Source of the DNA: Gemmatimonadota bacterium
GTDB lineage: Bacteria; Gemmatimonadota; Gemmatimonadetes; Gemmatimonadales; GWC2-71-9
Reading direction: 5' to 3'
Assembly (NCBI GenBank): GCA_003222155.1
Contig: QHUU01000095.1
Span: 1 to 34,715 of the forward strand
Length of the DNA stretch: 34,715 nucleotides
Part shown: piece by piece, positions 8,789 through 13,393 of the stretch
Layout: each line of letters opens with the position of its first letter
How positions within the stretch are numbered: position 1 is the stretch's first letter
The notes under the pieces: generated by a model
Told to the model about the DNA's origin: nothing
The model's input: only the letters and a program-made list of their open reading frames with translations
Databases searched by the model: none
Made by a program: the position numbers and the translations under genes

Positions 8789-9784
8789 CTAGGTCAGCAC
8801 GAATTCATAAGAGTGACGGTTGAGATGCAGCAGCATGCAGGACAGGAGCGCGCCGGACTTGTGGTACTCGCTCAGGTTGAAGAAGCTCAGGTCGAATCCC
8901 AAACTGACGGCGATGTCCTCCAGTCGGCGGTTCTTCGCGACCTCCGCGGCGTAGTCGTCCGTGCCGGCTTGGAGCTCGCTCACGTGCGAGGCGTTGAGGA
9001 TCGTGTTCGACAACCGCGCCGAGTTGCAGATCCCAGCGTAGCAGTCGTCCACGGACACGTCGATGATGTTGGTGTGCCGCTCGAGCGCTCCCAGCTCTTC
9101 GCGCCCGTACAGCTCCGTGCACACCATGGTATCGTCGCGGGTCACGGGGAAGACGGTGCAATCGAGATGGTACAGGTAGCGGTCCGTTTCCTCGAGCTTG
9201 ACGACCTGCATGTCGTAGCGCCGCTCCATCCACTCGTACGCTGCGCTCTCCGAGCGGATGCCGTAGCCACCCGCGTACACGTTGTCGCACAGGTGCTTCA
9301 GCTCGGCCTCGCCCTCGAACTTGTGGGGCGGTCGGGCGGTGCTGTAACCGAGCGACTCGAAGAACGCCACTCCCGGCGGAGCCTCGCCCACGCGCGGCGG
9401 AGCGCAGAAGTTGGAGACGAGCGCGGTGTTCTTGTCAGGCAGGTGTTCGAGCACCGCGCCGAGGCTCGCCGTGAAGACCAGGTCCTGGAGCTTGCGGTCT
9501 CCCCGGCTGGGCAACAGGTACACCACCGCTTCGGAGGCCACGAAGTGGTAGAGGTCGAGCCATTGCCGCATCGCCTTGCGCGCGTCTGGCCCGCGGCGCT
9601 CGGTCGGCAGGTCCTCCATCCAGTGATTGTCGGCGACCTGGGTGGAGAGCGAAAACGGCACGGCCAGCAGGAACGCCGGCTTGCCGAGCTGCGTCGGGTT
9701 CAGGGGCCGGCTGTGCGGCTCGGCGACCGCGGCGGGAGCCGGTGCGACGCCGGTCATGGTGTCTGCGGCCTGTGCGCGTATCAC
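8789..9784 (-). CDS. Amidinotransferase/dimethylargininase-type enzyme
   Basis: 331 aa. The five-bladed guanidine-modifying fold is recognised from three catalytic regions: FEGEAELKHL (156-165, the acidic residue that holds the guanidinium), YHLDCTVFPV (H206, D208) and SGALLSCMLL with the candidate nucleophile C316. Relatives hydrolyse or transfer amidino groups of arginine or methylarginines. The usual FxGxD is FEGEAE here, so substrate specificity is open. The GTG start is set by AGGAGG just upstream (9790-9795 complement). It overlaps the stop of the upstream decarboxylase-like gene by 4 nt (GTGA), so the two are very likely made together. Confidence 0.8.
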   Translation of the reverse strand: MIRAQAADTMTGVAPAPAAVAEPHSRPLNPTQLGKPAFLLAVPFSLSTQVADNHWMEDLPTERRGPDARKAMRQWLDLYHFVASEAVVYLLPSRGDRKLQDLVFTASLGAVLEHLPDKNTALVSNFCAPPRVGEAPPGVAFFESLGYSTARPPHKFEGEAELKHLCDNVYAGGYGIRSESAAYEWMERRYDMQVVKLEETDRYLYHLDCTVFPVTRDDTMVCTELYGREELGALERHTNIIDVSVDDCYAGICNSARLSNTILNASHVSELQAGTDDYAAEVAKNRRLEDIAVSLGFDLSFFNLSEYHKSGALLSCMLLHLNRHSYEFVLT

Positions 9785-10518
9785 GGTGCCTCCTCTGGTG
9801 ACCTGTCGGCGATGCGAACCAGCGGGTCGATCCCGGCCTCGACGTGCACGCCCGGTTGCTGCAGCGGGATGAACTCGAACCGCCGCGACAACGGCACGAT
9901 GAGATCGACCTGGGATCCGTAGCGGATCTGCGAAAACCGCTGGTTCTGTGCGACGGGGCGGTTCTGCTTGAGTTGGAACGGCATGATCGCATTGACGTCG
10001 TAGTCCGCGATCTGCAGCACGAAATACGACTGTCCGAGAGCCGGGGCGTACACGCGGTTGAGCATCCGCTGATTGGTGTGCAGGTAGCCGGCGGCGCCCG
10101 TGTCGAGGCGGAGATCCTGGAACAGGCCCTTCTCGACGCCGAGCGTCGGCTGGTTGTACGTGCCGATCTCGTCGAGCTCCTTGTACGAGAGGCGTCCGGG
10201 GAACGGGACGCGGTTGATGTGGACGTCCACGAACGTCATGAACACGCCGATTACCAGACTCTCGCGATCGTACGACGGATCGCGGATGGCGTCGCGCAGG
10301 GAGTAGCTCTTCCCCTTGATGTCCACGATGGGCTCGTCGGGCATGACCGTCTGCTGATAGACGACGATGCCGTCGGCGGGCGAGAAGAAATAGCTCGTGT
10401 CGGTGAGGGCCGGTCGCGTGGGATCCCGAAAGAAGTACTCTTCGGCAAGCCAGCGGAGCGGCTTCTCCTTCACGGGGGTCACGTCATTGTCCACCCACTC
10501 GCGCAGACTCTTCGCCAT
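9781..10518 (-). CDS. Phosphatidylserine-decarboxylase-like pyruvoyl enzyme
   Basis: 245 aa. PSD-family landmarks are in order: SPADGIV (D49), VDIKGKSYSLRD, FMTFVDVHINRVPFPG (H100) and RYGSQVDLIVP (G201-S202). In the family, cleavage before the Ser of a G-S motif makes the pyruvoyl group, with Asp and His completing the triad, so all three needed residues are present. The processing site is YGSQ rather than the classical LGST. That change is known in PSD-like enzymes acting on free amino acids, so the substrate may not be phosphatidylserine. GGGAG lies 6 nt before the ATG. The gene is coupled to the amidinohydrolase-like gene. Confidence 0.82.
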   Translation of the reverse strand: MAKSLREWVDNDVTPVKEKPLRWLAEEYFFRDPTRPALTDTSYFFSPADGIVVYQQTVMPDEPIVDIKGKSYSLRDAIRDPSYDRESLVIGVFMTFVDVHINRVPFPGRLSYKELDEIGTYNQPTLGVEKGLFQDLRLDTGAAGYLHTNQRMLNRVYAPALGQSYFVLQIADYDVNAIMPFQLKQNRPVAQNQRFSQIRYGSQVDLIVPLSRRFEFIPLQQPGVHVEAGIDPLVRIADRSPEEAP

Positions 10519-10773
10519 CGAACGCTCCCGACGTGGAGGGCGGCCGAGGGCGCGGGCAAAAAAAGTACCAGGCCGTGCGCGGTCAGCGCGGTGGCATGGC
10601 GCGGCCGATCACTTTGGTCACGTCTCGGTCCGTCGGTCACGTTTTGTTACGGCGGAGACGTTCCGCGCCGTGGCCGCGGTGCCGCAGCGATGGCGACGGC
10701 GAGACAGCGGCGCGCTACAGCGACAGTGACCGCGCGTGACGGACGTCACGGGCGCGCCGGTCGAGGCCGGCGC
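10519..10773. promoter_or_regulatory. Gap upstream of the decarboxylase gene, with a GGTCACGT direct repeat
   Basis: Between the M50/HlyD gene (ends 10774) and the decarboxylase-like gene lie 255 bases without a credible gene. GGTCACGT occurs twice, at 10616-10623 and 10635-10642, exactly 19 nt apart, and a related GTCACG sits at 10745-10750. Same-face repeats upstream of a start codon suggest an operator for the - strand gene pair. No convincing -35/-10 pair is visible, and the regulator is unknown. Confidence 0.35.
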
Positions 10774-13068
10774 TCACCACCATGACCAGAGGTTCACGCC
10801 CAGCGTGAGCGCCAGCCGACGGAAGACGATGTCGAGAATCCGCAGCCGGTCGCCGAACACCTTCGCCTGACCGCTCATGCCGGGCTTGAGGAGGAGCGAG
10901 TCGTTGTCGATTTCGGTGGTGACGCGAATCGTACGCGGGGCTCTCCCCGCCCCCGCCGCCGACACGCCTTCCCCGGAGGGCGGCCCGGCGTCCGCGCTCG
11001 TCGCGATCGCAGTCACGACGCCCCGGAAGGTGCGATCGGGATACGCCCGCGCCCGCAATGCGACGGGCTGCCCCACGCGGACGGCGGCGATTTCCCGCTC
11101 GGCAACGCTGAGCTCGGCGCTGACTCGTCTCAGCTCGTAGACCTTCGCGAGCAGGTCGCCCTGCCGCACGTTTTGACCCACCAGCTCGGCCAACTCCCTG
11201 GTCGGCGTGGCGACGATGCCGGCGACGGGGCTTCGCACCGCGACCTGGCGCAGCTCGCCTTCGAGGTAGCGGTGCTGCGCCTCGAGCCCTCCGGCCTCCG
11301 CCCTGGCGGCTTCGACCTCCTCGACGCGGGATCCGTGAAGCAGCGCCTCCAGCCGACGACGCGCTTCCAGCTCGTCCTGTGCGGCGGTCGCGGCCTGCTC
11401 TTCGCTGCTCTCGAGGTCCACGCGGGTCAGGACGCCGCTGTCGGCGAGCTGCCGGTTGCGGCTCAGCCGCGCGCGCGCGTATTGGAGGCGGGTGCTGGCC
11501 TGCTCCAGCGCGGTGCGGGCCAGCCCGATCGAATCGGCGGTGGGACCGGCCTCGAGCATCCGCACGTGGGCCCGCGTCTCGCGCAGCCGGGCATCGGTTT
11601 TCGCGAGATCGGCCCGGTGCGCGCGATCGGAGAGGCGGGCGACCACGTCGCCCGCCCGGACGGCGTCGCCCTCTGCGACGTAGACCCGCTCGACGAGCCC
11701 GTCGGTCTCGGTGCGCACATCCGCGTTGTGGAGCGGCTCGATCGTGAACGCCCCGGCGACGCGGAGGCGGGCGTGCCCCAGGATACCGCCGGCCAGGACG
11801 CCTGCGGCGACCGCCAGGCCACGGAGGGCCCGCGTTCGCTTCCGCCGGTGCTCCGGCGACGGCGGCTCAGCCGGGCGTCCATCATGCGATGCCGTGCCAA
11901 AGAGCGTGCCGATCCGGCCGCGGACGTTGGTGACCAGCAGCCCGACGAACAGCGCAAGGGCGAGGGGCTGACTCCCCGCCATCAGCAACCCCAGTGTTTT
12001 CACGCTCCCCACGGCCAGCAACCCCAGGGACGGCACGGCCGCGAGCAGACCGTACCCCAGGTAAATGCGTCGTTCGCGCGGAGACAGATCGGCCGCGGGC
12101 GAGCCCGCCCGGCCCCACGCGCGGCGGACGAGTCCGCCCACGTAGCGAAACGACCGCCTCCGGAGATTGGGCACGTCGAGGTAGTCGCTGAGCAGGTAAT
12201 AGCCGTCGAGCTTGAGGATGGGGCTGAGATTGAGGAGCGTCTTGACGCCGGACCCCGCCATCACGATCAACGCGATGTAGTTCACGCCCATGTCGAGGTC
12301 GGTCAGCCGCCAGGTAAACACCGCGAGGGCCCACAGCACGAGCTCGAAGTAGGGGCCGGCGAACCCGACCCACAGCCGCTTCGCCTTCTCCGGGAAGAGC
12401 CAGGCGTCGCTCACGTTACAGTAGAAGGCGGGCTGAAAGTAGATCAACATGAAGCCGACTTCGTGTACCTCCCCACCGAAGTGCTTGCACGTGACGCCAT
12501 GGGCGAATTCATGCGCCGACGCCGCGAGAAATGTGACCGCCAGAAACGGCACGATCGCCGTCAGGTGGTACAGCCGCGCCAGGTCCTGGGCGATGTCGCT
12601 CCAGTTCGCACCGGCGGTGGCCAGCGCAGCGACGACGACCGCGCCGGAGGCGGCCAGAAACTGCGGCGTGTAGCACCACCGCAGCGCGCTCGCGAGTCGG
12701 TCGAGCAGGCGGTTCGGATCGGCGACGGGGAAGCGGAGGTAGAGGAGGCTTCCCCGAATGCGGCGCCGGCGCTGGTTGGCGGCGACCGCCGCCGGCGCGG
12801 ACTCGAGCAGGCCCGCCCTGCCGAGATGGCGCAAGAACGTCGCCAGGCCCTCCGGCGCCAGCGCCGCCCCGAAGCGCGCCTCCGTCCGCTGCCGGATTCC
12901 CTCGACCGACGTCTCGCCGTCGCACTGCTGTGTGATGAATCGTTCGACCTCCCCGAGACGAAAGAAATCTCCCGTGCGGGGGTCCTTCACGATCGCAACG
13001 GTCCCTTCGGTCGTGGTTTGCTCGCGGACCAGCAGATCGCGTCGCAGCAGCGGCGGAGCCGAGATCAC
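10774..13068 (-). CDS. PqqD-like domain + M50 membrane protease + HlyD-type adaptor (putative peptide maturation/export protein)
   Basis: 764 aa. Residues 1-92 form a PqqD-like winged helix (TGDFFRLGEVERFI, LATFLRHLGRAGLLES), the fold that binds leader peptides in RiPP pathways. Several membrane helices follow (about 135-385), carrying the M50 zinc motif H186-E-F-A-H190 and the third-ligand motif LKLDGYYLL (286-293). Residues ~440-485 form a lipoyl/barrel-sandwich domain (VAEGDAVRAGDVVARL). A long coiled-coil hairpin follows, then the returning half VRSPVAGIVAT, and the protein ends KPGMSGQAKVFG...NLWSWW. Such 'peptide zinc metalloprotease' adaptors accompany peptide export. The GTG start has no clear Shine-Dalgarno. 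The short leader-peptide-like gene upstream is the likely partner. Confidence 0.85.
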   Translation of the reverse strand: MISAPPLLRRDLLVREQTTTEGTVAIVKDPRTGDFFRLGEVERFITQQCDGETSVEGIRQRTEARFGAALAPEGLATFLRHLGRAGLLESAPAAVAANQRRRRIRGSLLYLRFPVADPNRLLDRLASALRWCYTPQFLAASGAVVVAALATAGANWSDIAQDLARLYHLTAIVPFLAVTFLAASAHEFAHGVTCKHFGGEVHEVGFMLIYFQPAFYCNVSDAWLFPEKAKRLWVGFAGPYFELVLWALAVFTWRLTDLDMGVNYIALIVMAGSGVKTLLNLSPILKLDGYYLLSDYLDVPNLRRRSFRYVGGLVRRAWGRAGSPAADLSPRERRIYLGYGLLAAVPSLGLLAVGSVKTLGLLMAGSQPLALALFVGLLVTNVRGRIGTLFGTASHDGRPAEPPSPEHRRKRTRALRGLAVAAGVLAGGILGHARLRVAGAFTIEPLHNADVRTETDGLVERVYVAEGDAVRAGDVVARLSDRAHRADLAKTDARLRETRAHVRMLEAGPTADSIGLARTALEQASTRLQYARARLSRNRQLADSGVLTRVDLESSEEQAATAAQDELEARRRLEALLHGSRVEEVEAARAEAGGLEAQHRYLEGELRQVAVRSPVAGIVATPTRELAELVGQNVRQGDLLAKVYELRRVSAELSVAEREIAAVRVGQPVALRARAYPDRTFRGVVTAIATSADAGPPSGEGVSAAGAGRAPRTIRVTTEIDNDSLLLKPGMSGQAKVFGDRLRILDIVFRRLALTLGVNLWSWW

Positions 13069-13085
13069 GCCGCGACCGGGACCAC

Positions 13086-13116
13086 GAAGGCCGCCGGAGG
13101 TTCTCCGGCGGCCTTC
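13086..13116 (-). terminator. Perfect hairpin between peptide gene and exporter gene (attenuator or leaky terminator)
   Basis: A perfect 14-bp inverted repeat (GAAGGCCGCCGGAG / CTCCGGCGGCCTTC) with a 3-nt loop lies in the 91-nt gap between the 44-codon gene and the M50/HlyD gene. On the - strand no U-run follows, so it may act as an RNA-stabilising or partly terminating structure that lets the peptide gene be expressed in excess. On the + strand it is followed by TTGTTAC, but no + strand gene precedes it. Confidence 0.55.
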
Positions 13117-13159
13117 TTGTTACTGCCCACCACGTCACTGCCTATCAACCACGGCGGTG

Positions 13160-13294
13160 TTAATCGTCGTCGTGGTGGTGATGGTGGTCGTGGTCTTCAT
13201 CGTCGCCCACGGAGATGCCGATGGAAATGCCACCGACGAGGTCGGGCGCGATGCGCTCCTCGAGTTTCTCGAGGGAAGGGTACAAGTGTTTCAT
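13160..13294 (-). CDS. Putative double-glycine leader peptide with Asp/His-rich core (candidate secreted peptide/RiPP precursor)
   Basis: 44 aa, too short for ordinary gene calling. ATG at 13294-13292 is preceded by an ideal Shine-Dalgarno, GGAGGTGA, 6 nt away (complement of 13299-13306); the stop is TAA. Residues 1-22 look like a leader: a charged helix with SLEKLEERIAPD, ending in VGG. The remaining 22 residues begin ISIGISVG and end in an acidic/histidine tail (EDHDHHHHHDDD). A leader cut after Gly-Gly is the classical signal for peptide export. The adjacent downstream gene encodes a PqqD-like leader-binding domain joined to a protease and an adaptor. The His/Asp tail could bind metal. That it is a precursor is inferred; that it is a well-initiated ORF is seen. 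Confidence 0.68.
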   Translation of the reverse strand: MKHLYPSLEKLEERIAPDLVGGISIGISVGDDEDHDHHHHHDDD

Positions 13295-13393
13295 GATGTC
13301 ACCTCCATGAAAGGACCGTCATGTGAAGCCTGCCTTCCGGCTTCGGTGGGGACCCGCGCAAACGGCATGCCCTCCGGGAGCATGGCCCATCCC

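Follow-up and report, generated by a model that had tools for sequence, protein, structure and literature searches.

In daptide biosynthesis, precursors such as MpaA carry the motif ELExMEAP, in which AP ends the leader, Pro being residue -1 by the numbering used there. The leader is removed by an intramembrane site-2 protease with an N-terminal RRE (MpaP/DapP), and a Leu and a Met three residues apart in the leader are essential, for the RRE of MpaB (PMC10036551). For EpeX, both cleavage and export are tentatively ascribed to the M50 protease EpeP (PMC10885120). Most descriptions of RRE-fused M50 proteases concern daptides from Actinomycetota and Bacillota; the RRE-Finder paper and a 2025 RRE survey mention neither 'M50' nor 'HlyD' in their main texts. 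Here we describe a 34,715-nucleotide stretch of a Gemmatimonadota contig (QHUU01000095.1; hereafter the window, from genome G000) in which a 44-codon gene precedes a gene for a PqqD-M50-HlyD fusion protein. Because the front part of the peptide is nearly fixed across phyla and the adjoining protein probably serves in its recognition, cutting and delivery for export, the pair appears to represent a family of secreted peptides not described before in bacteria. A logic similar to that of daptides is now seen in Gram-negative soil phyla with few cultured members, where the protease has a built-in export arm and an orphan third protein occurs.

The short gene encodes MKHLYPSLEKLEERIAPDLVGGISIGISVGDDEDHDHHHHHDDD (44 aa). 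The initial annotation had proposed it as a leader-bearing peptide gene with a Shine-Dalgarno sequence ahead of it, and both proposals hold (Table 1); a GGAGG-type site is likewise present in many relatives. Its start codon, leader and position are kept beside homologous proteins in other phyla, indicating that the gene is more than a chance reading frame, and this conservation together with the substitution pattern rules out a chance ORF. The peptide genes of the window and of G001, a congener, differ by 14 synonymous and 6 non-synonymous changes over 29 codons (pN/pS 0.14). Differences in the leader are exclusively synonymous in three further cross-species pairs (L066-L067, L067-L074 and L070-L072), and in the aligned relatives codon changes are mostly silent within the leader and vary freely beyond it. 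Judged from these substitutions, the leader is under purifying selection while the cores differ; random substitution and lack of conservation, which the annotation had named as evidence against the gene, were looked for and not seen. The peptide matched no Pfam or NCBIfam family, and literature searches with the leader motif returned nothing relevant.

Table 1. Features of the peptide locus in the window
Feature	Position	Strand	Basis or remark
Precursor peptide gene, 44 codons	13160..13294	-	Reading frame and ribosome-binding site; start, leader and position kept elsewhere; low pN/pS
Shine-Dalgarno sequence GGAGGTGA	13299..13306	-	Read directly; precedes ATG
Leader, residues 1-17, MKHLYPSLEKLEERIAP	13244..13294	-	Alignment of 21 peptides
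Predicted core, residues 18-44, DLVGGISIGISVGDDEDHDHHHHHDDD, 27 residues	13163..13243	-	Varies between relatives
Perfect GC-rich hairpin, 14-bp stem, 3-nt loop	13086..13116	-	Between peptide and protease genes
PqqD(RRE)-M50-HlyD fusion, 764 aa	10774..13068	-	Domain matches; alignment of 13 homologues, catalytic residues invariant
PqqD/RRE-like domain, residues 1-92, proposed leader binder	12793..13068	-	PF05402; layout of the model
HEFAH zinc-protease motif, residues 186-190	12499..12513	-	Invariant residues
HlyD-type periplasmic adaptor, residues 430-764	10774..11781	-	PF16576/PF13437 over cut-off
Deletion joint	10762..10783	-	ATGGTGGTGAGC at 10772-10783 is what is left of the third gene (its four initial codons); the ends meet at 10762-10771

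The initial annotation had suggested searching related genomes for the same short gene upstream of PqqD-M50-HlyD homologues. This search found it, and the leaders align. A protease-first search detected the peptide upstream in the congeners G001 and G002, and subsequent leader searches brought in G074 and G063 as well as another copy in G002. A wider leader search at E<=1 gave mostly noise, and only matches beside M50 genes were used. A scan of genomes with the leader alignment yielded 14 loci, all with the peptide, in records labelled Gemmatimonadetes, Acidobacteria, Verrucomicrobia (including Opitutia and Chthoniobacterales), Eisenbacteria and Actinobacteria. The same leader thus occurs in Gemmatimonadota, Acidobacteriota and Verrucomicrobiota and in one Eisenbacteria MAG, and the hosts are soil bacteria. 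The fusion gene lies directly downstream at 13 of the 14 loci, the remaining one (L073) stopping at a contig end, so that the proposed association of the short gene with this protein is borne out across genomes. At L065 and L069 the fusion gene is broken by a frameshift, which may reflect assembly error or decay. Protease searches blind to the leader also recovered the peptide, in G434:C368 (L098), G623 (L111) and G442 (L112) and at L102 and L104; two peptides are present at L112 and at L102, and G002, G442 and G432 carry two different peptides per locus. Neither the peptide nor the third gene described below was seen beside the more divergent M50-HlyD genes L126, L127 and L128. The gene families common to the loci across phyla are the fusion, the third gene and, at three loci, a FemAB-family acyltransferase (L070:11782-12816, L071:12209-13366 and L081:5256-6344, in three genomes of different phyla), the last being a possible extra tailoring enzyme.

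A sister peptide family, LTxEQKxxIRxATGKxAExLELSVEELEERIAP followed by 2-12 residues, matched no known family and often occurs in tandem. It adjoins separate hlyD and pqqD-M50 genes at seven loci (L075-L079, L085 and L087), which belong to the window's order and family. Another such peptide lies beside a GAF-like gene (L023:1078-1747).

Across the loci the leader follows the consensus MKHLN[P/L]xLEKLE[E/Q]RIAP and in most relatives reads ELEKLE-QRI-AP. M1, L11, E12, R14 and A16 are invariant in all 21 aligned peptides, and L4, N5, E9, I15 and P17 nearly so; in both G002 peptides, T replaces P at the proposed cut site. Past Pro17 the same peptides show cores of 26-116 residues, with a net charge of -9 to +9, 0 to 9 His residues and differing C-terminal ends (DDD, SGD, HSS, SCS, GSK, PTH and SKC). 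The cores are of low complexity, lack a fixed modification site and are mostly hydrophilic, an I/V/G-rich stretch being found in some only. The initial annotation had taken Gly-Gly as the cut site, a view that the alignment contradicts: the conserved boundary pair is Ala-Pro. Gly-Gly follows the leader directly in some relatives (APGG), stands a few residues past the boundary in the window peptide (residues 21-22) and is missing near it in others (APDLINIGIG, APDCVSVLG and APCLSIGLP), and neither a C39 peptidase nor an ABC transporter was seen next to it. The suggested metal-binding product fares no better as a shared function, which is rejected since His and acidic content are not common to the family. 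Given the wide range of core charge and His counts, Asp/His richness is a trait of the window copy and its near relatives, not of the family.

The hairpin between the peptide and protease genes resembles a terminator or attenuator. No U-tract follows it in the window, but one does in some loci (L066 and L081). Folding of this interval in 14 loci gave comparable strong hairpins in nearly every one. The initial annotation mentioned neither the hairpin nor the loss of a third gene and the divergence of the window allele described below.

The domain composition originally assigned to the downstream gene, namely a PqqD-like domain, an HEFAH M50 protease and a HlyD adaptor, was confirmed by family matches and invariant catalytic residues. 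PF05402 matches residues 27-88 over the Pfam cut-off. The M50 family PF02163 matches below its cut-off (E=8e-5), and the NCBIfam model daptide_HExxH (NF041824) matches residues 16-376 with E=1e-64 and 219 bits, below its 300-bit cut-off; the fusion proteins of the relatives likewise fall under this cut-off. H186, E187, H190 and D288-G289 (in LDGYY) are invariant in all 13 aligned homologues, and the HExxH motif, the downstream DGYY and a multi-helix model are the features of an M50 metalloprotease. In the AlphaFold model (mean pLDDT 74), residues 1-84 have the PqqD/RRE layout of three strands and then three helices (pLDDT about 73-89), and are followed by a multi-helix membrane part and then the adaptor, whose best PDB matches by both sequence and fold are MacA and EmrA.

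In different phyla, and at almost every locus of the group where the available sequence extends far enough, the fusion gene is directly followed by a third gene; the exceptions are the window and G442. The third gene encodes a protein of about 330 residues (315-345) containing LNNGSHRAYALRxxGxxHVPCIVQH, which has no Pfam or NCBIfam family and no meaningful PDB sequence match; its AlphaFold model (pLDDT 50) is too poor for a fold reading. The gene is rare, being found in only two of about 300 genomes of the window's phylum (G001 and G002), with distant partial relatives in the phylum of G430 (Acidobacteria), where five genomes have them. The distant relatives in that phylum (L118-L122) measure about 300 residues and contain a DGYHRAYxLLxAG motif, and no M50 gene was seen in the stretches examined around them. 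The NGSHRA/DGYHRA motif is reminiscent of the ParB/sulfiredoxin fold; no test supported this identity, which remains a lead. A blastn comparison with G001 revealed a net loss of 968 bp in the window, where the sequence passes, four codons into the third gene, into what is the far intergenic region in G001. Nothing anywhere in G000 (about 95% complete) matched the third gene. The deletion, a possible assembly error, placed the third gene outside the view of the initial annotation.

The genes surrounding the locus have the same order in the window, G001 and L061, and encode FabI, a polysaccharide deacetylase and a phosphatidylserine decarboxylase; the window neighbours scanned for domains were the decarboxylase, a DDAH-like protein and the deacetylase. 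The gene with weak DDAH similarity (8789-9784, minus strand) overlaps the end of the decarboxylase-like gene (9781-10518), and this pair is kept in G001 and L061. The G001 contig is filed as Gemmatimonadetes, and L061 (VAWH01000008.1) is filed as 'Actinobacteria AC_1', although its synteny with Gemmatimonadota contigs suggests a misbinned gemmatimonad. In its flanking proteins the window is closest to G001: the decarboxylases are 96.7% identical, and pairs with L061 reach 89-91%. The fusion proteins conflict with this pattern, G001 and L061 being 94.3% identical whereas the window and G001 share only 76.1%, which suggests allele exchange or unusual divergence at the locus. Set against L062 and L061, the window fusion gene (10774-13068) shows the same conflict with its flanking genes (76% against 94% identity). 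A relative-rate test revealed no acceleration of the window copy (59 versus 48 unique changes, chi2 1.13), which favours allele exchange.

The reading that we favour, and consider reasonably probable, is that the precursor is recognised, cut and handed to export by the fusion protein and that the third protein acts in most relatives. By analogy with the daptide leader, RRE and protease, and with EpeP as a precedent, the leader part LEKLEERIAP (residues 8-17) would dock on the N-terminal PqqD-like (RRE) domain, the M50 domain of the same polypeptide would cut the window precursor after Ala16-Pro17, and the 27-residue core would then travel via the fused HlyD arm to an outer-membrane channel of the TolC type, many of which are encoded in G000. 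In most relatives the third protein would probably act on the peptide, for instance modifying a core rich in Ser/Thr/Gly/Lys/His or providing self-protection. The pairing of peptide and fusion gene across loci, the selection on the leader, the invariant catalytic residues and the sister peptides beside split pqqD-M50 and hlyD genes speak for this reading. The mostly hydrophilic core, unlike typical substrates of intramembrane proteases, counts against this mechanism, as does, for the energy source of export, the lack of an ABC, MFS or RND pump gene accompanying the fusion. The T at the proposed cut site in G002, the two frameshifted fusion genes and the missing third gene in the window also weigh against it. 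A bolder version, which we regard as possible but doubtful, is an undescribed cross-phylum class of exported and perhaps modified peptides in which one polypeptide provides leader recognition, intramembrane proteolysis and a periplasmic export arm and the third gene brings a new modification; if it were true, cutting would drive or gate export without a dedicated pump.

With the third gene deleted, the window peptide may leave the cell without modification, or the locus may be in decay and the window copy non-functional. That the window peptide and protease are a remnant no longer used after this loss seems rather unlikely: a clean deletion of about 1 kb with no other third-gene copy in G000 would fit it, but both reading frames are intact, the catalytic residues are kept and G442 retains its peptides and fusion without the third gene. 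The relative-rate test also speaks against decay, not decisively, as the deletion could be recent. An unmodified secreted peptide, with LEERIAP as an export tag, the fusion as a minimal one-piece secretion machine and the cores acting at the surface or in a matrix, for instance by binding ions, is an unlikely explanation for the group. The low-complexity cores, variable in charge and length and lacking a fixed modification site, agree with it, as do the lack of any known modifying enzyme and the two loci without the third gene; the near-constant presence of that gene behind the fusion at the other loci, across phyla, speaks for a second step. Signalling roles of M50 proteases are well known, and the fusion might be a site-2-type signalling protease whose cleavage of the peptide reports the envelope state. 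This appears improbable, as neither a sigma factor nor an anti-sigma factor was seen next to the genes and both the presence of two peptides per locus (G002, G442 and G432) and the hypervariable cores fit products better. Export by a C39-ABC transporter as a classical double-glycine bacteriocin, which the cut site of the initial annotation implies and the Gly-Gly of the window peptide would fit, is very improbable: the position of this pair is unconserved, several relatives lack it near the boundary, and the adjoining partner is an M50 metalloprotease, with no C39/ABC gene seen beside it.

The system makes peptide export by M50 proteases testable with one protein, and the uncharacterised third protein family may hold new chemistry. 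The pattern MKHLN-LEKLEQRIAP ahead of a PqqD-M50-HlyD gene provides a search handle. Status as a new class of modified peptides hinges on the third gene, while the system is already novel as a variant.

The locus has the general traits of a RiPP, namely a short precursor with a conserved leader and variable core (21 peptides) and a leader-recognition (RRE/PqqD) domain encoded beside it; the only candidate core-modifying enzyme is the third gene product, absent in the window. In agreement with the initial annotation, neither a lanthionine nor a radical-SAM enzyme turned up among the scanned neighbours. None of the named RiPP classes fits. Double-glycine bacteriocins are marked by GG/GA at a fixed leader end, which is absent here, and no C39/ABC gene was found in the scanned neighbours or conserved clusters. 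In one relative the core has SHGSKSGSH-type repeats resembling HxsA4 of the His-Xaa-Ser repeat peptides (NF038313, E=2e-7, below cut-off), but the likeness is confined to low-complexity repeats, the leader is unrelated and no HxsB/HxsC enzymes were identified, so that HxsA4 identity was rejected. The C-terminal part of the fusion shares fold and sequence with the HlyD/MacA/EmrA adaptors, which are normally separate proteins working with an ABC or MFS pump, whereas here the adaptor is fused to a protease and no pump gene adjoins. Epipeptides (EpeX/YydF) are made by a radical-SAM epimerase, and no radical-SAM gene was detected among the scanned neighbours or as a cross-phylum cluster. They resemble the present system in that cleavage and export of the peptide are both proposed to be the work of an M50 protease, and the fusion weakly matches the NCBIfam LiaK/YydH protease, but the protease here carries RRE and HlyD parts in addition. 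With daptides the system shares an M50 protease that begins with an RRE, reflected in the NF041824 match, the leader pattern E-L-x-x-[LM]-E ... A-P, in which L8 and L11 correspond to the essential Leu and Met, and the frequent occurrence of several precursors per locus. It differs in the HlyD arm fused to the protease and in three extra leader residues (ERI/QRI) before AP. The scanned neighbours and cross-phylum clusters include neither MpaB/C/D/M-type enzymes nor the oxidoreductase, PLP aminotransferase and methyltransferase genes of a daptide cluster, the precursor ends vary and lack the invariant C-terminal Thr of daptides, and the NF041824 score stays below its cut-off. The original proposal of a candidate new peptide system stands, though as a relative of RRE-M50 systems of the daptide or epipeptide kind. 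By sequence, the closest characterised proteins are the RRE-fused intramembrane M50 proteases of daptides, and this candidate RiPP-like system, though outside the daptides as defined by these features, probably works like a daptide-type maturation step.
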